Origin: Gallionellales bacterium RIFCSPLOWO2_02_FULL_57_47
GTDB taxonomy: Bacteria > Pseudomonadota > Gammaproteobacteria > Burkholderiales > Gallionellaceae
Assembly: GCA_001801175.1 (NCBI GenBank)
Contig: MGWZ01000012.1
Span: 1 to 60,997 of the forward strand
Direction: 5' to 3'
Length of the DNA: 60,997 nucleotides
The position numbers were made by a program, and so were the translations under genes. The notes below the pieces were generated by a model, which had not been told where the DNA came from, searched no databases, and worked only from the letters and a program-made list of their open reading frames with translations. Below, piece by piece: positions 49,293-59,698 of the stretch. Positions within the stretch are counted from its first letter, which is position 1. Each line of letters opens with the position of its first letter.

Positions 49293-49555
49293 GTTCGCGC
49301 ATGGATATAATGCGCCAGCGCCTCGCCGCGCTCGCCCCTGTTTCGCTCGATATCATCGACGAAAGCCACAAGCACGCCGGACATGCCGGCGCGCGCGATG
49401 GCGGCGGGCATTATGTGTTGCGCATCGTCTCGGCGCAGTTTGCCGGAAAGAATACGATGGCGCGCCACCGTATGATATATTCCGCGCTGGGAGAAATGAT
49501 GAAGCGCGAAATACACGCGCTCAATATCCAGGCGCATACGCCGGATGAAATTTAA
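49289..49555 (+). CDS. bolA: BolA-family protein
   Basis: 88 residues. It has the BolA core '[20 protein letters not shown]' with the conserved His, '[18 protein letters not shown]' and '[20 protein letters not shown]'. BolA proteins pair with monothiol glutaredoxins in Fe-S trafficking and can act as transcriptional regulators. ATGA overlap with yciI; 31 bp before ppiC. Confidence 0.95.
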
Positions 49556-49586
49556 TTGTCAATTTATTATTGGAAGAGGACTCAGC

Positions 49587-50390
49587 ATGTATAAAACTGA
49601 AAAATTTGCAGCACTGAAATTTGCAGCACTGGCAATATTTGGCGCCCTGGCGATACATCCCGCTTACGCCGAAGAAAAATCAGCCGCCTTGGTGAACGGT
49701 ATTTCCATTCCGCAAGCGCGTCTCGAATTTCGCGTCAAAGCCGCCACCGCACAAGGGCAGGCAGACACCCCGGAATTGCGCAAGGCGATTCGGGAAGACA
49801 TGATCAACCTCGAAGTGCTGGCGCAAGAAGCCGCCAAAGCAGGGATGGACAAGAACCCCGATGTCATTCAACAAACCGAGATAGCCAGGCAGACGGTGCT
49901 GGCTGGCGCTTTTGTGCAGGATTACACCAGGAATCATCCTGTCAGCGAAGACCAGCTCAAACAGGAATATGACAAGCTGAAAGCCAATCTCGGCAAAAAT
50001 GAATATAACGCTCGCCACATTCTGGTGGAAACCGAAGCCGAGGCGAAGGCCATCATCGCGCAGCTCGGCAAGAAGGGCAATTTTGACAAGATTGCCAAAG
50101 AGAAGTCCAAGGATGCCGGCTCTGCGGGACGCGGCGGCTCATTGAACTGGGCGGTGCCAAGCAACTTCGTTGCACCGTTTGCCAACGCACTGACCACCCT
50201 GAAAAAGGGCGCATACACCAAAGAACCGGTACAAACGCAATTCGGCTGGCACGTCATCAAGCTGGACGATGTGCGCGAACTGAACGCGCCTCCATTTGAT
50301 GATGTCAAGCCGCAAATACATCAACGCCTGACGCAGCAATCCATCCAGGGAATCATTAACGACCTGCGCAGCAAAGCCAAGATCGAGTAA
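49587..50390 (+). CDS. Periplasmic parvulin-type peptidyl-prolyl isomerase (PpiC/SurA-like)
   Basis: 267 residues from the ATG at 49587 with GAGGA upstream. Signal peptide residues 1-28 end 'HPAYA'. A SurA-N-like helical region (30-125) is followed by the parvulin domain (about 130-235): 'EYNARHILVETEAEAKAIIA', 'AKEKSKDAGSAGRGGSLNWA', 'KEPVQTQFGWHVIKLDDVRE'. It folds outer-membrane proteins. Inside the signal peptide a 15-bp tandem duplication (AAATTTGCAGCACTG twice) encodes 'KFAALKFAAL'. A terminator follows. Confidence 0.93.
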   Translation: MYKTEKFAALKFAALAIFGALAIHPAYAEEKSAALVNGISIPQARLEFRVKAATAQGQADTPELRKAIREDMINLEVLAQEAAKAGMDKNPDVIQQTEIARQTVLAGAFVQDYTRNHPVSEDQLKQEYDKLKANLGKNEYNARHILVETEAEAKAIIAQLGKKGNFDKIAKEKSKDAGSAGRGGSLNWAVPSNFVAPFANALTTLKKGAYTKEPVQTQFGWHVIKLDDVRELNAPPFDDVKPQIHQRLTQQSIQGIINDLRSKAKIE

Positions 50391-50417
50391 TTGCTGATCG
50401 CGTTACGCAGCAAATTA

Positions 50418-50448
50418 AAAGGGCGCTTCTTCGAGAGTGCCCTTTTTC
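50418..50448 (+). terminator. Rho-independent terminator after ppiC
   Basis: AGGGCGCT (50420-50427) and AGTGCCCT (50436-50443) pair, with one G-U, and are followed by T5. It closes the yciB-yciI-bolA-ppiC unit. Confidence 0.85.
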
Positions 50449-50500
50449 TATTCCTCATCGTCGCCATACACCTCTCAATGACGATTTAACCAGTCCTTTC

Positions 50501-51040
50501 CTAAGCCACAGACCAATCCAGTTCCACCCATGCGCAATTGGCGATGCTGCCGCGTACGATTTGTTCCGGGTCATCTGCTGTCAAGGCCAGCGCCGCGAGT
50601 ATCGGGTTTTCGTGGGATACCGCCAGCACTTTCCCGACCGGGTGGCGTGCGGCGATTTCGTCCATGAAGCCGCGCAGGCGTTCCATCTGTTCCAGAAACG
50701 ATTCCCCACAATCCGGTTTGATTCGCAATGGGTCGGTGTATACCAGATCGACAAACACATCCACCGGCAGCCCATCCATTCCGGTTCGGCGTTCATTTAT
50801 GCGTGCATCAATATGCAGCGGGCAGGCGTGGTGGCGCAGCAGAATCTTCGCGGTTTGCTGGGCGCGCGGAAATTCGGAAGCATAAGCATGGGTGAAGTGC
50901 GCCGCACGCAATTCAATTGACGCAGCCTCGGCCTGCGCCCTGCCCCGCTCCGTCAGGTTTACAGGCCGTGCGGGATCATCGTTGATGCGGTGGGCGACAT
51001 TCGCTTCGCTCTCGCCATGGCGGATCAGAAGTAATTTCAT
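50501..51040 (-). CDS. Histidine phosphatase family protein
   Basis: 179 residues. Catalytic 'LLLIRHGESEANVAHRI' has the phosphorylated His in RHG; 'ASEFPRAQQTAKILL' has the conserved Arg; 'KVLAVSHENPILAAL' provides the second His. It belongs to the phosphoglycerate-mutase-like branch; substrate not assignable. It is monocistronic, followed on its 5' side by a long inverted repeat. Confidence 0.9.
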   Translation of the reverse strand: MKLLLIRHGESEANVAHRINDDPARPVNLTERGRAQAEAASIELRAAHFTHAYASEFPRAQQTAKILLRHHACPLHIDARINERRTGMDGLPVDVFVDLVYTDPLRIKPDCGESFLEQMERLRGFMDEIAARHPVGKVLAVSHENPILAALALTADDPEQIVRGSIANCAWVELDWSVA

Positions 51041-51089
51041 GACGGTCTCTTTCAGTACAATTCCATTTCCCGATTAATAGAGCAGTAAC

Positions 51090-51195
51090 GTAGGGCGGGT
51101 TCCACCCGCCAGATATAGCCATCTGGCATAGCCAGTGAAAATCGTAGGGTGCATTCCATGCACCAATTGCAATGGTGCATGGAATGCACCCTACA
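51090..51195. repeat. Double inverted repeat with GTAGGGYG arms
   Basis: CGTAGGGCGGG...CCCGCC and TAGCCATCTGGCATAGCC hairpins are followed by a near-perfect palindrome, GTAGGGTGCATTCCATGCAC at 51144 and its complement ending at 51194. It sits between the histidine phosphatase and yceH genes. Confidence 0.8.
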
Positions 51196-51240
51196 TGGTT
51201 ATTGTTGTATTAAAAAATAAATGGAATGGATGCGTAGATC

Positions 51241-51918
51241 CTATCCGGCTGAAACGCCCAGCTCCGCGCACAGCCTGACTATCATCGACCGCAGCTCGCT
51301 TACCTCCGCTTCGAGCCTGGCGACGTTGGCCTTGAGCGCGGCGATTTCGCCCACCGTCACATCGCCCGAAGGTGTCGCAGATGCCGCTCTTGCGGACACG
51401 CTTTCCTCAATGACTGGTGCGCCGGAGAGCAGGTGCATCCAGCGGTTTTCGCGCGAGCCGGGCTGGCGTGGCAACTCCGCCACCAGGCCACCCGCCGCAC
51501 GCTCGGCCAGCTCGACCAGAAAACTTTCGACCGAAGAAATGTCCGCGAACTTGTGCAACCGCTCGCAATTGAGGCGCAACTCCCCCGCCGTCTGCGGACC
51601 ACGCAACATCAGCATGGCCAGCAGGGCGGTGGACTGGGTGGGGATGTGCAGCACCCGTTCGATGTTGTGCCCGTAACGCGACGCCCTCCCCCCGCTGGTT
51701 TCCACGATCAGCGACAACCCCCTCAGGCTATCCAGCGCCACCAGCACTTCAGATTCCGAAGCCTCGAGAACCGGGTCGCGGCTGCTCTTCTGGTTGCAGC
51801 CGGAAACCAGCGAGTTCAGCGTCAGCGGATAAGAGTCCGGCACCGTGCGCTGCTTCTCGGCGAGCACGCCGAGGACGCGGGTTTCGAGGAGGGAGAGAAT
51901 GGGGAGTGTGGTGGGCAT
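51241..51918 (-). CDS. YceH family (DUF480) winged-helix protein
   Basis: 225 residues. The UPF0502 pattern is clear: 'LETRVLGVLAEKQRTVPDSY', 'LTLNSLVSGCNQKSSRDPVL', 'VETSGGRASRYGHNIERVL', 'LLAMLMLRGPQTAGELRLNC'. The C-terminal coiled coil ('LKANVARLEAEVSELRSMI') suggests oligomerisation. Two winged-helix domains are known from structures in the family; function unknown. Confidence 0.93.
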   Translation of the reverse strand: MPTTLPILSLLETRVLGVLAEKQRTVPDSYPLTLNSLVSGCNQKSSRDPVLEASESEVLVALDSLRGLSLIVETSGGRASRYGHNIERVLHIPTQSTALLAMLMLRGPQTAGELRLNCERLHKFADISSVESFLVELAERAAGGLVAELPRQPGSRENRWMHLLSGAPVIEESVSARAASATPSGDVTVGEIAALKANVARLEAEVSELRSMIVRLCAELGVSAG

Positions 51919-51946
51919 AATTTATCTTCGTGTATTAAAAATCCGT

Positions 51947-52036
51947 TCGCCCTGAGCTTGTCGAAGGGCATTGGGCGAGTGGCTGGTGGTTCGACAAGGC
52001 CTTTAGTCCTGAGCGAAGTAGAAGAGTCACCACGAA
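51947..52036. repeat. Palindromic repeat (CGCCCTGAGCTTGTCGAAGG family)
   Basis: CCGTTCGCCCTGAGCTTGTC and GTTCGACAAGGC...CACCACGAACGG form the arms. Second copy of the family seen at 3545-3667. It separates yceH and djlA, both on the minus strand. Confidence 0.7.
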
Positions 52037-52066
52037 CGGTTGAACATCATTAGCGTTAAAGGAAAA

Positions 52067-52840
52067 TCAAATATTCCTGCTCTTCTTGACCATGTCGTAG
52101 GCAAGCTGGATTTCTTTCGCCTGCTCGGTTGCCATTGCAATCATGTCCTCCGGCACGCCCTGCCCCATCAACTTGTCCGGGTGGTACTGGCTCATCAGCT
52201 TGCGGTAGGCGCGCTTGACCTCCGCGTCGGTGCTGTCTTTATTCACGCCCAGGGCCTTGTAGGCATCGTCCAGTGCTGCGGCTGTGGTGACCTTCCCCCC
52301 GCCGAAATGGGACTGATTCAGCACCATCTCGATCATCTGTTTGAACGCGTCCGGGCCATATCCCAGATGGCCGGCGATCTCGGTGAGCAACGCTTCTTCA
52401 GCCGGATGAAAATGTCCGTCCGCCAGCGCCATCACGATCAGGTAAGCCAGCAACACCTCCCGCAGATTCTTCGTGTGCCCGCAAACCGATATGAACCGCC
52501 GGCAGGCCGGATAGATGTCAAACGCCGGGTCGGCGCCCTGCTTGAACAACTTGATCGCCTGCTCGCGATGCGTCTCTGTCATGCCCAGTTTCTGCATGAA
52601 CTGCTCGACATGATCGATCTCTTCCCGAGAGACACGCCCATCGGCCTTGGCCAGCTTGCCCATCGAGACGAACACCGTCTCCAGGAACACAGCCTGGCGC
52701 AGCGCATTCTGCAACGGGTTCATCCCGCCGGAACCATACACCCTGATGCGGTCGATAAACGACCCGATGAACAGGCCGAGCAGCGCACCAAAGATGCCGA
52801 AAAAGTAATAACCTGCAATGACACCGATGATCTTGAACAC
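52067..52840 (-). CDS. djlA: DjlA-type membrane-anchored J-domain co-chaperone
   Basis: 257 residues. One N-terminal membrane segment (about 4-28, glycine-rich) is followed by a TerB-like helical domain ('GKLAKADGRVSREEIDHVEQ', 'LADGHFHPAEEALLTEIAGH') and a C-terminal J domain ('YKALGVNKDSTDAEVKRAYR', with HPD in 'SQYHPDKLMGQG'). DjlA stimulates DnaK at the inner membrane. The arrangement is the standard one for DjlA. A palindromic repeat lies immediately upstream. Confidence 0.94.
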   Translation of the reverse strand: MFKIIGVIAGYYFFGIFGALLGLFIGSFIDRIRVYGSGGMNPLQNALRQAVFLETVFVSMGKLAKADGRVSREEIDHVEQFMQKLGMTETHREQAIKLFKQGADPAFDIYPACRRFISVCGHTKNLREVLLAYLIVMALADGHFHPAEEALLTEIAGHLGYGPDAFKQMIEMVLNQSHFGGGKVTTAAALDDAYKALGVNKDSTDAEVKRAYRKLMSQYHPDKLMGQGVPEDMIAMATEQAKEIQLAYDMVKKSRNI

Positions 52841-53105: not shown

Positions 53106-53432
53106 ATGGCAGCCACCACCACGCTGAAACTACCCGAAGAACTGAAAGCGCGCATCGCATCCGCCGCACAGGCATCCGGCAGAACCCCGCACGCCTTCAT
53201 GATTGAAGCGCTTGAAGTGCAAGCCCACCTGGCCGAAATGCGGCAATCATTCATCAATGACGCAATCTCCTCTGCCGCCGAGGTAGATACAGGCGGCGCA
53301 CTCTACGCAATGGAAGATGTGCAGGCATACATTCTGGCCCGCACTTCAAGAAAGACAGCGAAACGCCCCAAGCCCATCGTTCGCACTGACGCGAAGAACC
53401 AACCCCGCACGACTAAACGCACCGCACGCTGA
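53106..53432 (+). CDS. RHH-type antitoxin
   Basis: 108 residues from the ATG at 53106 with AAGGAG upstream. The first 45 residues form a ribbon-helix-helix: 'TTTLKLPEELKARIASAAQA' then 'SGRTPHAFMIEALEVQ'. The middle ('AVHLAEM'-like helix and 'MEDVQAYILAR') is helical and the last 40 residues are strongly basic ('SRKTAKRPKPIVRTDAKN'), longer than usual in ParD/CopG antitoxins. It is 4 bp before the ParE-type toxin gene and should neutralise it and repress the operon. Confidence 0.88.
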   Translation: MAATTTLKLPEELKARIASAAQASGRTPHAFMIEALEVQAHLAEMRQSFINDAISSAAEVDTGGALYAMEDVQAYILARTSRKTAKRPKPIVRTDAKNQPRTTKRTAR

Positions 53433-53436
53433 TTCC

Positions 53437-53730
53437 ATGCCCAAGGTGCATTTCACAAAACAGGCACTGTCCGACCTCGAACGTATATTCCAATTTCTCG
53501 AACAAGAAGCACTGGACTTCGCCATCACGGCCGGTAAAGAGATCGTCGATGCCACCTCGATATTGCAGCGCCACCCCCTGATCGGACGCCCGGCCCCGCA
53601 CAACCTGCGCGAACTCGTCATTTCGAAAGGACGTTCCGGTTACGTGGCGATGTATCGCTTCCTGCCTGCAAAAGACCGTATCGACATCCTCGCCATCCGC
53701 CACCAGCGCGAATGCGGTTTCATCGATTGA
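53437..53730 (+). CDS. ParE/RelE-superfamily toxin
   Basis: 97 residues from the ATG at 53437. The fold pattern is 'VHFTKQALSDLERIFQFLEQ', then 'LQRHPLIGRPAPHNLRELVI', 'GYVAMYRFLPAKDRIDILAI' and 'RHQRECGF'. ParE toxins poison gyrase, RelE toxins cut mRNA on ribosomes; the missing RelE catalytic set favours a ParE-like role. It forms a complete module with the preceding antitoxin gene. Confidence 0.9.
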   Translation: MPKVHFTKQALSDLERIFQFLEQEALDFAITAGKEIVDATSILQRHPLIGRPAPHNLRELVISKGRSGYVAMYRFLPAKDRIDILAIRHQRECGFID

Positions 53731-54371: not shown

Positions 54372-54394
54372 CTACCACCAGGGAGGCGAATAAA

Positions 54395-57265
54395 ATGGAA
54401 AGCGCGAAAATCAAAATGATACTGTTGATGCGGGGCAACACCGGCAAGGAGGTTGCCACGCTGAAGAAAGCCCTGCGCAAGGCACTGGGCGCAGGCGCAG
54501 CGGCATATCCTGGGCTGGCCGCCGGCAATGAATTCGACACCGACACCCAGACCGCGCTGCGCGCCTGGCAGTCCAGTGTGGGCCTGGTGGCGGACGGCAT
54601 CGCCGGGCCTCGCACCTTGTCCGCGCTGGGCATTGCACCGCCCGCAAAATTGGCCGTCAGCGTGGACACCGCCACAGTGAACAAGTTGTTTCCTTACACC
54701 AAGACATCCAGCATCGCCAGGAATCTGCCTTATGTGACCGCGGCACTGGCAGCCTTCGGCCTGACCGATGCGAACATGATCAGCACCGCGCTGGGCACGA
54801 TACGCGCCGAGACCGAGGGTTTCGTGCCGATCGCCGAATTGCCGTCCCATTTCAATACGCTGCCCGGCCAGGCCGCCTTCAGCGCCTACGATCACAGGCT
54901 GGGCAACAAGGAACCGGGCGACGGCGCACGCTATCGCGGGCGGGGTTTTGTGCAATTGACCGGGCGCGACAATTACGAAAAATTCGGCAAAGTTCTCGAC
55001 ATTTCACTGGCAGATAATCCGGATTGCGCCTGCGCTCCGGAAGTCGCCGCCTGCCTGCTGGCGGCCTATCTCGATGCCAACCGGGAAAAATTATCCAGCG
55101 CACTTGCGAAGGATGACCTGAAGGCGGCACGCAAGGTAGTCAATGGCGGCAGTCACGGCCTGGAGCGATTTTCCGACACATTCCGCATGGCGCAGAAGCT
55201 GTGGGCCGCCTCCGCGAAACCACTCGTCGGGGCGCTGGCCAGGGCGGCCCCGATCGCGGCGCGCCGGGCATCCCTCAATGTGAAGCGCGACGCGGCGGAT
55301 CTGCGCGACCGGCAGTACATGCCGCCGCCGCACTCGCTGCCGCAAATTTTTCCGGCGGATGGCGACATCAAGCATTTCATGGGCGCCTATACCCAGTCCG
55401 GACTCATCCTGGATCAGGGACAGGAAGGTGCATGCACCGGTTTCGGCCTGGCCTGCGTCGTCAACTACCTGCGCTGGCGCGCCGCCGGAATGCCGAAGAA
55501 ACTCGAGTCGGTCAGTCCGCGCATGCTGTATCACTTCGCCCGGCGTTTCGACGAATACGAAGGCGAGAACTACGACGGCTCAAGCTGCCGGGGCGCGCTC
55601 AAGGGCTGGTATCACAACGGCGTGTGCCTTGAATCCAGGTGGCCTTACGCGGAAGGAAACGACACTCTGCCCAAGTCGGGCTGGGACAGCGACGCCGTCG
55701 AACGGACGCTGGGGGTGTATTACCGCATCGACCCGCAGGCCATCACCGACTTGCAGGCGGCGATTCTGGAAGTCGGCGCGATCTACGCTTCGTCCTATAC
55801 CCATAAAGGCTGGGACGCGGTCAAAACCAGCGCCAAGCCGCCGGCATCCCACGCCACCCTGCCGGTGATCGCCTACGACGGCAAACCGTCGCGCAGCGGC
55901 GGTCACGCCTTCGCGCTGGTGGGGTTCAACCGCACCGGCTTCGTGATCCAGAATTCCTGGGGCGACCAATGGGGCGCCGGCGGTTTCGCCGTGGTCAGTT
56001 ATGCGGATTGGCTGGCGCATGCGATGGACGTCTGGGTCGCCGCGATGGGCGTGCCGGGAGTCGTCTCGGGCCGGCTCGCGTCAGGCGGCAGGGAAGTTGC
56101 GGGCGCTGAAGCAGCAGCGGCCCGCGCCAACTGGTGGGACGAGGCCACCGCCTACCGGCACAGCATCGTGCTGGGCAACGATGGTCGCGTCAATCGCTAC
56201 GAAAAACTGGACGGCGTCACTCGCTCCCTGCAGAACCAGGCGTGCGTGATGCCGGATAGCTGGTTCCGGCAGAACCCGCACGAGAAAAAACGCCTGGTGA
56301 TCTATGCGCACGGCGGCCTCAACAGTGAAGCAGACGCGATCCACCGCGCCCGAGCAATGGGACGATATTTCCTCGGCAACGGCTGTTACCCGCTATTCCT
56401 GGTGTGGAAGAGCGGCCTGCTCGAATCGCTCGGCAACATACTGGCGGAGAAAGTCAGTCCCGGCGCGGCGGGCATGGCCGGGGGCATCGGCGGCTGGCTA
56501 ACCGACAAGGTCAGCGACCCCCTCGTCGAAAAAACCATCGGACGCCCGTTCGCCCGCCCGCTGTGGAGCGAGATGAAGGAAAACGCCGAACTCGCGTCGG
56601 AAGGCGGACGGGGCGGCGACCTGCTGACCGAAGCGCTGCGCTCGCTGGCCGGCAGCTGGGGCGACAAATTCGAACTGCACCTGATGGGCCATTCCGCCGG
56701 CTCCATCATCCTCGGCAGATTGCTCGGCAGCCTGGCGCAGAAAGGTCTCGCCGACAGCGTCAAGTCCGTCCATCTGTACGCCCCGGCGTGCACGGTCGCC
56801 TTTGCCAACCGGCACTATGCGCCGCATGACAAGATCATGAGCAGGCTGCACCTGGACATCCTCGGAGATCAGCGCGAACAGGATGACAACGTGGCATTTG
56901 TCTATCAGAAGTCCCTGCTCTACTTCGTTTCCAACGCGCTGGAGGCCGATTTGCGCATGCCCATACTCGGCATGGAGAATGTCTTTAACCCGCAGTATTC
57001 CGGGTGGAACGGCTCTTCAATCACCGCCGAAACCCTGACCAACTGGCGCAACGCTGCGGAAATCGCCAGGCTGAAGGATAGGCTGACGATTCACCACGAA
57101 GAGAAGATACTGACCCGGCGCGGCAACGGTGCGGATGTGCAGGAAAAGACCGAAAGCGCATCTCACGGCGGATTCGACAACAGTGTCGAAATCATCGGCA
57201 AGACTCTGGAACGGATCACCGGCGCACCGCTCGCACTGCCGGTCGATGATCTGGTCGGGTTCTAG
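54395..57265 (+). CDS. Four-domain hydrolase: PG-binding, GH19 lysozyme, papain-like protease, alpha/beta hydrolase
   Basis: 956 residues with GGGAGG 8 nt before the ATG; no signal peptide or TM. Residues 9-80: PG_binding_1 ('LRAWQSSVGLVADGIAGPRT'). Residues 92-270: GH19-type chitinase/lysozyme with Glu139 in 'IRAETEGF', 'RLGNKEPGDGARYRGRGFVQ' and 'LTGRDNY'; the usual YEGR second-acid segment reads YDHR (Asp166). Residues 330-555: papain-like (C1) protease with Gln341, Cys347 ('QGQEGACTGF'), His504 ('SGGHAFALVGF') and Asn520 ('VIQNSWGDQWG'), a complete catalytic set. Residues 630-880: alpha/beta hydrolase with 'VIYAHGGLN' and nucleophile Ser767 in 'LMGHSAGSII'. It should attack peptidoglycan, proteins and an ester or lipid. 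The lack of a secretion signal suggests type VI-like export, lysis release or action in a recipient. Four small genes follow in the same direction. Confidence 0.9.
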   Translation: MESAKIKMILLMRGNTGKEVATLKKALRKALGAGAAAYPGLAAGNEFDTDTQTALRAWQSSVGLVADGIAGPRTLSALGIAPPAKLAVSVDTATVNKLFPYTKTSSIARNLPYVTAALAAFGLTDANMISTALGTIRAETEGFVPIAELPSHFNTLPGQAAFSAYDHRLGNKEPGDGARYRGRGFVQLTGRDNYEKFGKVLDISLADNPDCACAPEVAACLLAAYLDANREKLSSALAKDDLKAARKVVNGGSHGLERFSDTFRMAQKLWAASAKPLVGALARAAPIAARRASLNVKRDAADLRDRQYMPPPHSLPQIFPADGDIKHFMGAYTQSGLILDQGQEGACTGFGLACVVNYLRWRAAGMPKKLESVSPRMLYHFARRFDEYEGENYDGSSCRGALKGWYHNGVCLESRWPYAEGNDTLPKSGWDSDAVERTLGVYYRIDPQAITDLQAAILEVGAIYASSYTHKGWDAVKTSAKPPASHATLPVIAYDGKPSRSGGHAFALVGFNRTGFVIQNSWGDQWGAGGFAVVSYADWLAHAMDVWVAAMGVPGVVSGRLASGGREVAGAEAAAARANWWDEATAYRHSIVLGNDGRVNRYEKLDGVTRSLQNQACVMPDSWFRQNPHEKKRLVIYAHGGLNSEADAIHRARAMGRYFLGNGCYPLFLVWKSGLLESLGNILAEKVSPGAAGMAGGIGGWLTDKVSDPLVEKTIGRPFARPLWSEMKENAELASEGGRGGDLLTEALRSLAGSWGDKFELHLMGHSAGSIILGRLLGSLAQKGLADSVKSVHLYAPACTVAFANRHYAPHDKIMSRLHLDILGDQREQDDNVAFVYQKSLLYFVSNALEADLRMPILGMENVFNPQYSGWNGSSITAETLTNWRNAAEIARLKDRLTIHHEEKILTRRGNGADVQEKTESASHGGFDNSVEIIGKTLERITGAPLALPVDDLVGF

Positions 57266-57398: not shown

Positions 57399-57854
57399 AT
57401 GCAAAAAGCAGAAACAAAAGCCTCAAATCCATTGGTATTTGCCTTGTTAATAGCAGCAGTTGCTTTACAAGGTTGTGCTTTGTTTGTATCTCATTACGAT
57501 GCCGGTGCCTATCAGTATTTCACCAGCCTGAAGGCTTTCCATGTCAAATTATTGGAAGATAACAAAGCTGGTGAAGGAAAACTTTTTGACGAAGCAAAAA
57601 CGAAGATTGCTTGTGATACTGGCGAGCTTAAATTCCGTGAGGCAAGCGAATATGCGAATGGAAAGCAAGACACCACTCGCGTCAAAGCAATCGAATACGT
57701 TCATAACGTATTTATCCGCAACTGCAAATTGACTCTGGATGGCAAAAAGTTGTTTGGGAGCGATTATGCAGATCAACAAATAGTGGACATCAAGACAAAC
57801 TACGATTTGGCAATTGCTGGTGAAAGTGCCCGTGTTGGCGCACCTTCAAAATAA
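57399..57854 (+). CDS. Small lipoprotein of unknown function, candidate partner of the large hydrolase
   Basis: 151 residues; GAGGA lies 8 nt before the ATG. Signal peptide with lipobox 'ALQGC' (Cys26 region, 'AVALQGCALFVSHYDAGAYQ'). The mature part is helical and charged with three more cysteines ('IACDTGELKF', 'FIRNCKLTL'). I do not recognise a family. Base composition is clearly more AT-rich than the hydrolase gene, suggesting a different origin. By position it could be an immunity or anchoring lipoprotein acting in the periplasm, but nothing in the sequence proves that. Confidence 0.75.
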   Translation: MQKAETKASNPLVFALLIAAVALQGCALFVSHYDAGAYQYFTSLKAFHVKLLEDNKAGEGKLFDEAKTKIACDTGELKFREASEYANGKQDTTRVKAIEYVHNVFIRNCKLTLDGKKLFGSDYADQQIVDIKTNYDLAIAGESARVGAPSK

Positions 57855-57866
57855 GGAGCAGAAAAA

Positions 57867-58196
57867 ATGGCAACCATAGATGATGTTTTGAATTCACTAA
57901 AAGATGATGCTGTTAAGCTTGTCAAAGACCAGTTAAAGGACCTATTAACTTCCGCAAAGAAGGATGCAGACTCTGTCGTAAAAGAGACCGGACAGAAGAT
58001 CACCGACTGGCTTGTGATGAGAGCCCATGGAAAACTCAGCGACGATGAATTAGAAGCCTTACTTTACTCAAGAGACCAGCTTCTGCGTCAATACAAGAAC
58101 ACTCTTGAAATTCAAACAAGGGCAAGGGTTGAAAAAATCGCTGTCGGTTTGATAAATCTTGTACTGGACAAAATTCTTGGCTTTGCTTTTGGTTAA
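57867..58196 (+). CDS. Small amphipathic helical protein of unknown function
   Basis: 109 residues; AAGGAG precedes the ATG by 9 nt and the lipoprotein stop is 12 bp upstream, so the two are co-transcribed. The chain is almost wholly helical, Lys/Asp-rich at first ('LKDDAVKLVKDQLKDLLTSA', 'KKDADSVVKETGQKITDWLV'), and ends with a hydrophobic amphipathic helix 'VGLINLVLDKILGFAFG'. There is no signal peptide, so it is probably cytoplasmic or peripheral to the inner membrane. It shares the AT-rich codon use of its neighbour. The family is unknown. Confidence 0.75.
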   Translation: MATIDDVLNSLKDDAVKLVKDQLKDLLTSAKKDADSVVKETGQKITDWLVMRAHGKLSDDELEALLYSRDQLLRQYKNTLEIQTRARVEKIAVGLINLVLDKILGFAFG

Positions 58197-58231
58197 TAAA
58201 CCCAACTCTACAGTCAAGTGGCAGATGGAAG

Positions 58232-58292
58232 GGTCAGCATCACAGTGTTATTATTCCGGCAAAGCAAGGCGATGTTGGTCCTAGGGCTTATG
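58232..58292. repeat. REP-like hairpin, copy 2
   Basis: GGTCAGCATCACAGTGTT ... GCGATGTTGGTCCTA. Shares most positions with the copy at 57284 over about 60 bp and lies in the next intergenic gap of the same gene cluster. Confidence 0.65.
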
Positions 58293-58346
58293 TATGCACG
58301 CTAAAATAACAGGCATCATGCAGCATTGCTCACCCAGGAGGTGTGT

Positions 58347-58934
58347 ATGGATCGATACCTGATTTATATCGTCACGCTGTTCGGCTTCTTTCTGAGTGCG
58401 CTTTGCTTTGTCGTCATATTCCGCGGCAAGCGCATTCCGGGCGATACCGGTTCCACTCAGGAGCTCGAGTACAAGGGCTTCAAGATGAAAACCAACGCCG
58501 TCGTGATGCTGCTCGCGGTGTCCTCGATCGTCACGGTGCTTCCGCTTTCCTTGCAGGCATGGTTGGAGAGCATCCGTACTGCCAACTCGGATCGCGGGAA
58601 TACACCGTTGCCACCTGCCAAAAATCAGCCGCTGACGATATTCATCACCGGCCAGGTGCTTGACAGCGAAGGCCCCATCGAGGGAGCGAAGGTCACCGTG
58701 GTCAACATGAAGAACGTCAAGGCGGGCGACAAACTTGCGCCGCTGGAAGAGCGCGTGACGGATGGCAGCGGCACCTTCGACTTTCCCCCGCTGTCATTCG
58801 GCGAGGGCGATCGCTACAAGGTTGTTGCGGCGAAGGAAGGCCATGTTGAGCAGTACTTCTATATGGGGCCCTCAGGCGCCGTCGATGTGAGGACGGTGCT
58901 CGTCGCCAAGAAAAAAAGCGGAGGCGAACCATGA
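58347..58934 (+). CDS. Two-TM protein with carboxypeptidase-regulatory-like domain
   Basis: 195 residues from the ATG at 58347, with an excellent AGGAGGT site. TM1 (about 4-26) and TM2 (about 54-75) are followed by an extracytoplasmic beta-sandwich (about 105-190) resembling CarboxypepD_reg/Cna-B-like domains: 'ITGQVLDSEGPIEGAKVTVV', 'VTDGSGTFDFPPLSFGEGDR', 'YKVVAAKEGHVEQYFYMGP'. Such domains mediate binding or act as structural modules. It overlaps the next gene by 4 bp (ATGA), so they are coupled. GC content is high, unlike the two genes before it. Confidence 0.8.
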   Translation: MDRYLIYIVTLFGFFLSALCFVVIFRGKRIPGDTGSTQELEYKGFKMKTNAVVMLLAVSSIVTVLPLSLQAWLESIRTANSDRGNTPLPPAKNQPLTIFITGQVLDSEGPIEGAKVTVVNMKNVKAGDKLAPLEERVTDGSGTFDFPPLSFGEGDRYKVVAAKEGHVEQYFYMGPSGAVDVRTVLVAKKKSGGEP

Positions 58935-59698
58935 GCATGAACAAATGGATCTTCGCGTCGGTTATGTTGATGCTTGCGACCGGCACCTGCGTCGCGCAGC
59001 CGGCGAGCATTACTTCCCAGCCCGATGGCGCAGAGATGATTCTGATTCCAGCAGGGTCTTTCATCTACGGTGCCGACCAAAAGGAAATCAAGACGCTGCT
59101 CAAGCAGATCAAGGCCGGCTGGGCGGATATCTACGGCACCGAGCATCCCAGGCAATCCAGGACACTGCAGGCGTTCTACATTGACCGCTACGAGGTCACC
59201 AATGAGCGTTACAACCGCTTTGTCCAGGCCACCAAACGCCAGCCGACACGTTTCGCGCGCTATCCCCAGCTGAATGCTCCGAAACAGCCTGTGGTCGGAA
59301 TCGGCTGGGGCGATGCCGAAGCCTACTGCAGGTGGTCCGGCAAACGCCTGCCCACCGAGGAGGAATGGGAAAAAGCGGCCAGGGGAACGGACGGCCGGAC
59401 ATGGCCCTGGGGCAACACGGCAAACGCGACAATTTACAACGGCAAGGGAGCAGAGTTTTTTGCGCCGGTGGCGGCAGGCAGCTATCGGAACAGCGACAGC
59501 CCGTATGGGGTGGCTGACATGTCGGGAAATGTCTGGGAGATGACTTCAAGCGAGTGGCAAGACGGCGCTAGAGTCATGCGGGGCGGTTCGTTCCTGAACC
59601 GGCTGGCTGATGTTCGCGTCACTGTGCGCTGGTCAGCCGAAGATGAAGTGCGCGGTGCCAATTGGCTCGGCTTCCGCTGCGCGCAGGATGTGAAATAA
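58931..59698 (+). CDS. Secreted FGE/sulfatase-modifying-factor-like protein
   Basis: 255 residues; signal peptide 1-22 ('VMLMLATGTCVA'). The SUMF1/FGE-sulfatase fold is complete: 'MILIPAGSFIYGA', 'FYIDRYEVTNERYNRFVQAT', 'PVVGIGWGDAEAYCRWSGKR', 'LPTEEEWEKAARGTDGRTWP', 'GVADMSGNVWEMTSSEW', 'RVMRGGSFLNRLADVRVTVR', 'GFRCA'. The pair of active-site cysteines expected after 'RGGS' in true formylglycine-generating enzymes is missing, so it is probably a non-enzymatic binding variant. No sulfatase gene is in the window. Such domains recur as recognition modules in bacterial conflict systems. Confidence 0.88.
   Translation: MSMNKWIFASVMLMLATGTCVAQPASITSQPDGAEMILIPAGSFIYGADQKEIKTLLKQIKAGWADIYGTEHPRQSRTLQAFYIDRYEVTNERYNRFVQATKRQPTRFARYPQLNAPKQPVVGIGWGDAEAYCRWSGKRLPTEEEWEKAARGTDGRTWPWGNTANATIYNGKGAEFFAPVAAGSYRNSDSPYGVADMSGNVWEMTSSEWQDGARVMRGGSFLNRLADVRVTVRWSAEDEVRGANWLGFRCAQDVK

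Follow-up and report, generated by a model that had tools for sequence, protein, structure and literature searches.

Several of the enzymes joined in the gene described here are known as separate proteins. The GH19 endolysins SPN1S (4ok7) and PWe2 (9ms7) stand alone, as does xylellain (3ois), a bacterial papain-type C1 protease. Combinations have also been recorded: passages of Asplund-Samuelsson et al. 2012 (PMC3501461) note four metacaspase-Amidase_2 proteins, for which autolysis or cell death was suggested and between whose two domains no hydrolase is mentioned there, and a portion of PMC11297309 reports 68 predicted toxins associated with extracellular contractile injection systems (eCIS) that have a peptidoglycan-binding domain. 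The present work concerns one gene (positions 54395..57265, forward strand) in a 60,997-nucleotide stretch of contig MGWZ01000012.1 of Gallionellales bacterium RIFCSPLOWO2_02_FULL_57_47, referred to below as the window. Its product, a 956-aa protein encoded by an open reading frame (ORF) with homologues, combines a peptidoglycan-binding domain (PGBD), a GH19 glycosidase, a C1 protease, and an alpha/beta hydrolase (ABH). Unlike the endolysins, its GH19 domain sits in a multi-enzyme chain without a full-length match in the phage and viral collections searched, and, unlike xylellain, its protease lies mid-chain among other enzymes. An earlier note, made from the DNA letters alone, had called the combination unrecognised. 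This holds for the open-access literature searched, where no publication was found whose title or abstract opening describes a papain-GH19-hydrolase architecture, but not for sequence databases, where the architecture recurs. We tentatively propose that the gene encodes a one-gene, cytoplasmic, endolysin-like lysis enzyme that would become active once the inner membrane fails, a function read from its anatomy, domain swapping, neighbourhood, and selection.

Domain architecture and conservation

The gene starts with an ATG preceded by the Shine-Dalgarno-like AGGGAGG (54380..54386), and all features of this section lie on the forward strand. The PG_binding_1 domain (residues 16-78, 54440..54628; PF01471, E 3.4e-9) is followed by an endolysin-type GH19 glycosidase (residues ~89-275, 54659..55219), in which E139 and E148 are invariant and whose family membership is indicated by the presence of both the lysozyme fold and the catalytic Glu. 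Compared with solved structures, this domain matched endolysins with E down to 2.8e-14 and chitinases with E of 0.02 and up, and its PHROG match is an endolysin. The papain/xylellain-like protease (residues ~296-556, 55280..56062) has the Gln-Cys-His-Asn set (Q341, C347, H504, and N520) on a papain fold, which assigns it to the C1 peptidases. The ABH domain (residues ~583-956, 56141..57262), delimited by the structural model, fold, and conserved residues, contains the motifs HGGLN (639-643) and GHSAG with S767, the candidate acids D825, E828, and D831, and H924. The fold, the G-x-S-x-G nucleophile, and the His plus acid place it among the alpha/beta serine hydrolases. Its fold matches do not point to a single type, including as they do lipases, esterases, a thioesterase, and further enzymes, and it is probably a lipid- or ester-cutting enzyme; the hydrolase alone was compared by VIA-align, and the Foldseek 'pdb' run used the full model. 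Residues 275-304 (55217..55306) and 558-576 (56066..56122), low-confidence parts of the model with a predicted local distance difference test score (pLDDT) below 50, flank the protease and are best read as flexible linkers, which would suit self-processing. No signal peptide or other export signal and no membrane segment are visible in the protein, the maximum 19-residue hydrophobicity mean being 1.32.

In an alignment of 68 full-length proteins, ten residues (E139, E148, Q341, C347, H504, N520, S767, E828, D831, and H924) never vary. This alignment includes the window protein and reaches down to 53% identity, with close relatives still among its rows. It is quoted instead of a 69-row conservation count in which some genomes stand twice. 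In comparison with six relatives, dN/dS is 0.05-0.24 in every domain, indicating that each is under purifying selection. The earlier description of four domains in one 956-residue chain lacking a signal peptide and membrane segment is thus borne out by profiles, fold, and the hydrophobicity scan, and the papain set, the GHSAG nucleophile, and the GH19-like core that it had pointed out correspond to invariant residues on the expected folds. Searches for the GH19 and C1 domains, which that note had set beforehand as a possible refutation, supported both.

A constant hydrolase with exchangeable partners

The anatomy of the family was surveyed in 398 genomes of the phylum (27 with a match) and 300 of the order (40 with a match). 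Forty of the best loci, the window locus left out, were taken for classification, and 39 were classified. The commonest form, C1-ABH, accounts for 25 of the 39 and is called the short form below. PGBD-GH19-C1-ABH was found at five loci, Amidase_2-ABH-caspase at four, ABH alone at three (one of them, L243, interrupted by a stop), and GH19-C1-ABH and PF11860 muramidase-C1-ABH at one each; the amidase, muramidase, GH19, and caspase domains were verified by Pfam in the examples scanned. As judged by sequence comparison, the alpha/beta hydrolase is the constant part of the family, which is new in this analysis. The wall hydrolase is exchanged among family members, being GH19, PF11860 muramidase, or Amidase_2, and the predicted protease is of either the papain or the caspase type.

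The Amidase_2-ABH-caspase proteins (L126, L127, L259, L260, and P0241-P0360) have a middle domain that is homologous to the window's hydrolase and that gave no Pfam match in two examples scanned. They form a large family of their own: a query with one of them gave 547 matches at E up to 1e-3 among 8000 candidates, and both PF00656 and PF01510 were present in 116 of the 120 matches listed, the query's own record included. A hydrolase tree of 66 rows was built by a quick method with SH-aLRT (of 63 inner branches, 22 starred and 23 open). Separate positions in it are occupied by the window clade with its fused GH19, by L120 with its GH19, by L122 with its muramidase, and by the amidase-caspase group. 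Fusion versus non-fusion requires four changes on this tree when row L093, labelled C1-ABH owing to one in-frame stop, is corrected or omitted, and five otherwise.

Wall hydrolases also occur beside the short form. The 29 short-form loci considered comprise 27 from the neighbour reading plus L154 and L202, with the siblings of genus g256 counted once (L205). A wall hydrolase or peptidoglycan-binding gene lies no more than two genes away in six of them. At L150, a PGBD protein gene lies 11 bases upstream of the short form. L154 has the order GH108 lysozyme (E 4e-24), GTA_holin_3TM-like gene, C1-ABH, the first two genes overlapping. A GH19 gene lies near the short form in L202 (by Pfam) and L203 (by BLAST), an annotated PGBD protein gene lies divergently near that of L230, and an Amidase_2 plus PGBD gene lies 80 bases upstream in L231. 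Since L202/L203 and L230/L231 are pairs of relatives, the six loci represent about four lineages. At a larger distance, about 11 kb, a PGBD-GH19 gene accompanies the short form of L151. In a scan of 93 of 105 short-form neighbours from 27 loci (L155 without its main ORF), PG_binding_1 was the commonest family, with three members among the best 25 of 149 families; neighbour genes were called as longest ORFs, which is error-prone in GC-rich DNA. A short form on a Rhizobium leguminosarum plasmid (L113:2186-7317) has caspase-GDSL, YLATT, and trypsin genes and a weak DUF5675 match beside it.

Distribution of the full-length gene

The protein search gave 4446 matches at E up to 1e-3 among 8000 scored candidates, full length not being implied for all. 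The best 120, the query itself aside, cover at least 90% of the query at 69-92% identity. The names given to listed homologues, where there are any, are mostly peptidoglycan-binding protein, C1 family peptidase, or predicted chitinase. Relatives are encoded in 137 of 143 stretches of genome contigs, of which 80 were kept, and carriers include Gallionella, Ferrigenium, Rhodoferax, Variovorax, Aquabacterium, Pseudomonas, Dyella, Rhodanobacter, Buttiauxella, and Desulfobulbaceae. Dechloromonas denitrificans (P0033) and Aquabacterium commune (L100) are culturable carriers. The same domain order, which the earlier note had suggested looking for in other genomes, occurs in many proteobacterial genomes, and the predicted four-domain architecture is not a one-off.

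Among 101 genomes (the window's and those of relatives), 42 have some match, many being a stand-alone GH19 or C1 protein alone. An open full-length gene is present in 11, the window's included, and others have fragments, short forms, or broken copies (G048, G019, and G031). Broken, partly duplicated, or decayed copies at L229:7013-9824 (G048), L228:12472-12960 (G028), and L014 (G019) are signs of turnover. None of 463 matching phage records and none of 58 matching plasmid records cover 80% or more of the protein, and all five viral-contig loci match the GH19 part only. An origin of the gene from a phage or plasmid found no support in these collections.

Neighbours and a shared chromosomal site

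For the full-length gene, the scan covered 48 loci with 145 neighbours (90-700 aa); the window and 13 loci that were short or near-copies of others were omitted. Among the best 25 of 133 families, the commonest was outer-membrane phospholipase A1 (PLA1) with five members, followed by families of two. Four of the five PLA1 genes belong to sibling loci (L050 and L052-L054) that are 95-100% identical and are on the opposite strand, so they were taken as shared synteny, and PLA1 was rejected as a partner. PG_binding_1 was found in 2 of the 145 neighbours. Genes that we take to be catalase-like lie near the full-length gene in three lineages (L049, L058, L076, L082, and L088), and 2 of the 93 short-form neighbours gave an An_peroxidase match. 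Overall, the predicted neighbours of the full-length gene are not conserved past close relatives.

Upstream of the window gene lie four genes used as markers of a possible hotspot (49545..52840): presumably peptidyl-prolyl isomerase (PPIase)-like (+), phosphoglycerate-mutase-like (-), and YceH-like (-) genes, judging by their sequences, and a TerB-DnaJ gene (-) assigned by Pfam. In G044, G051, G014, G003, G020, and G048, at least one marker is no more than a few kb from the full-length gene, and the same is true of a gene remnant in G019. The GH108-holin-C1-ABH set of G057 has the PPIase marker alone nearby, and a set of C1-ABH, GH19, sheath, and tube genes in G586 the mutase marker alone. Between flank and gene, the window has a ribbon-helix-helix antitoxin-like gene (below the Pfam cut-off) and a ParE toxin gene (53106..53730, +); the short form of G008 has the TerB-DnaJ marker and a related ParDE pair nearby, as in the window. 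The presence of fused and split forms in one neighbourhood in part of the Gallionellaceae suggests that both do the same job.

Downstream in the window (57399-59698) are genes for a lipoprotein-like protein of 151 aa, a 109-aa protein, a membrane CarboxypepD_reg protein, and an FGE-sulfatase-domain protein. The first three were rejected as partners, having been found only in the window's own contig (L001 and L115) among the loci searched.

Function and alternative explanations

As a lysis enzyme, the protein would do no harm in the cytoplasm as long as the inner membrane is intact; after a breach, it would open the Gram-negative envelope on three levels. GH19, anchored to the wall via the PG-binding domain, would cut glycan strands; the papain domain would cut envelope proteins, or its own flexible linkers to release the other two domains; and the alpha/beta hydrolase would cleave ester or lipid bonds. 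The family core would consist of cysteine protease and alpha/beta hydrolase, an interchangeable wall hydrolase being joined by fusion or as a neighbouring gene. The pieces would act together in lysis on wall, protein, and lipid, and the lysed cell would be the producer itself, not a rival (as programmed lysis, set off by a phage or serving to release particles). That one hydrolase core is found again and again with different wall hydrolases lends indirect support to envelope lysis, and to this extent to the "envelope-lytic" action proposed in the earlier note. Also in favour of a lysis enzyme are the closeness of the GH19 domain to endolysins, the invariant catalytic residues, the wall hydrolase or PGBD genes near six short forms, the lack of a membrane segment, and the autolysis or cell death suggested for Amidase_2-metacaspase proteins in PMC3501461. 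Extending the proposal to a widespread, unnamed programmed-lysis family, in which a hydrolase plus papain or caspase core has repeatedly recruited peptidoglycan hydrolases and one gene replaces the endolysin and the outer-membrane step of phage lysis, is possible but doubtful.

Several observations weigh against a lysis enzyme. No wall hydrolase lies within two genes in 23 of the 29 short-form loci. The holin-like match of L154 scores 20.8 bits, below the Pfam cut-off of 24.8, and was seen in one genome. Next to the full-length gene, the best 25 of 133 families included no recognisable holin, no holin profile having been run over all neighbours. The full-length Gallionellaceae carriers G012, G050, G027, and G028 have no marker gene in the flanks read.

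The earlier note had instead envisaged an effector attacking wall, protein, and ester/lipid targets at once. Profiles, fold, invariant residues, and purifying selection agree on three intact hydrolase domains that could do so; delivery to other cells found no support. That the protein is an antibacterial effector reaching rival cells through some export route not yet recognised is rather unlikely. The type VI secretion system (T6SS) family VipA (PF05591) has no match in the window genome (a draft, 99.8% complete; other T6SS families were not searched) or in any of the ten further genomes, among the 101, with an open full-length gene, no export signal is visible, and no recurring adjacent immunity candidate was seen among the 145 neighbours (best 25 of 133 families). 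The eCIS tube family PF06841 is also unmatched in the window genome, where the sheath and other eCIS families were not searched. With both tested families unmatched there, T6SS and eCIS were rejected as general carriers; together with neighbours unconserved past close relatives, this makes an effector a weaker explanation than a lysis enzyme.

A suicide effector of an anti-phage conflict network, triggered by proteolysis or nucleotide signals, would overlap with the lysis reading and is unlikely. Sections of PMC7159879 describe the pairing of a caspase with a neighbouring alpha/beta hydrolase and note papain-like and lysozyme effectors; the R. leguminosarum short form adjoins trypsin, YLATT, and caspase-GDSL genes, and an FGE-sulfatase-domain gene lies downstream in the window. 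However, a PADLOC scan of six proteins gave no match at E up to 0.1, no NTPase domain was seen among eight window neighbours scanned, and for three of the four downstream genes no counterpart turned up at the other loci searched.

It is quite improbable that the protein is part of a contractile injection machine (eCIS), whether as payload, as tail lysozyme, or as an enzyme for release. In G585 (L201:2531-5911) and G586 (L202:4756-9245), the short form does lie at a gene for a contractile tail sheath, and G586 also has GH19 and tube genes beside C1-ABH; the stretches read at the two loci showed no other recognisable injection-system gene. In genus g256, an eCIS_core protein (assigned by Pfam on L205 and by BLAST for the others) is the third gene after the short form in seven of nine loci read (L204-L211 and L216), and 10 of 12 carriers tested have a tube gene. 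However, where tube and short form share a contig, as they do in four g256 genomes (G524, G527, G532, and G537), the tube is about 22-32 kb from the short form, in G527 and G532 beyond housekeeping genes. Genome-wide, PF06841 occurs in 2 of 11 full-length carriers (G027 and G088) versus 14 of 90 other genomes, and the tie of the full-length gene with the eCIS tube is weak.

Finally, a digestive enzyme for scavenging or predation, working extracellularly once leakage or normal cell turnover has released it, would fit three broad hydrolases in one chain and might need no immunity if never periplasmic, but it is very improbable given that no secretion signal is seen and that one split form is accompanied by a holin-like gene.

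If a lysis enzyme is indeed encoded, it would be a compact bacterial tool that fuses wall, protein, and ester/lipid cutting, with papain- and caspase-type proteases in the same slot. It would connect some bacterial caspases with a machinery of lysis, offer a single-gene system for testing programmed lysis, and explain many proteins labelled merely "peptidoglycan-binding protein", "C1 family peptidase", or "caspase family protein". Such an enzyme may open Gram-negative envelopes from inside.

Comparison with known systems

TseP (8xcl) is a dual effector that, by its entry title, is delivered by the T6SS, whereas the window genome is without VipA. The NTP-dependent conflict pairs of caspase and alpha/beta hydrolase, as presented in sections of PMC7159879, likewise join a cysteine peptidase with an alpha/beta hydrolase, a likeness by description, but are accompanied there by NTPase-system genes. 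The Amidase_2-metacaspase proteins, as characterised in passages of PMC3501461, differ in having an amidase instead of GH19, a caspase instead of a papain-type protease, and another domain order; they resemble the window protein in combining a wall hydrolase with a cysteine protease, and among the relatives that we classified the two are separated by a homologous alpha/beta hydrolase. Set beside these systems, the window gene brings together familiar enzymes in a recurrent, unnamed combination.
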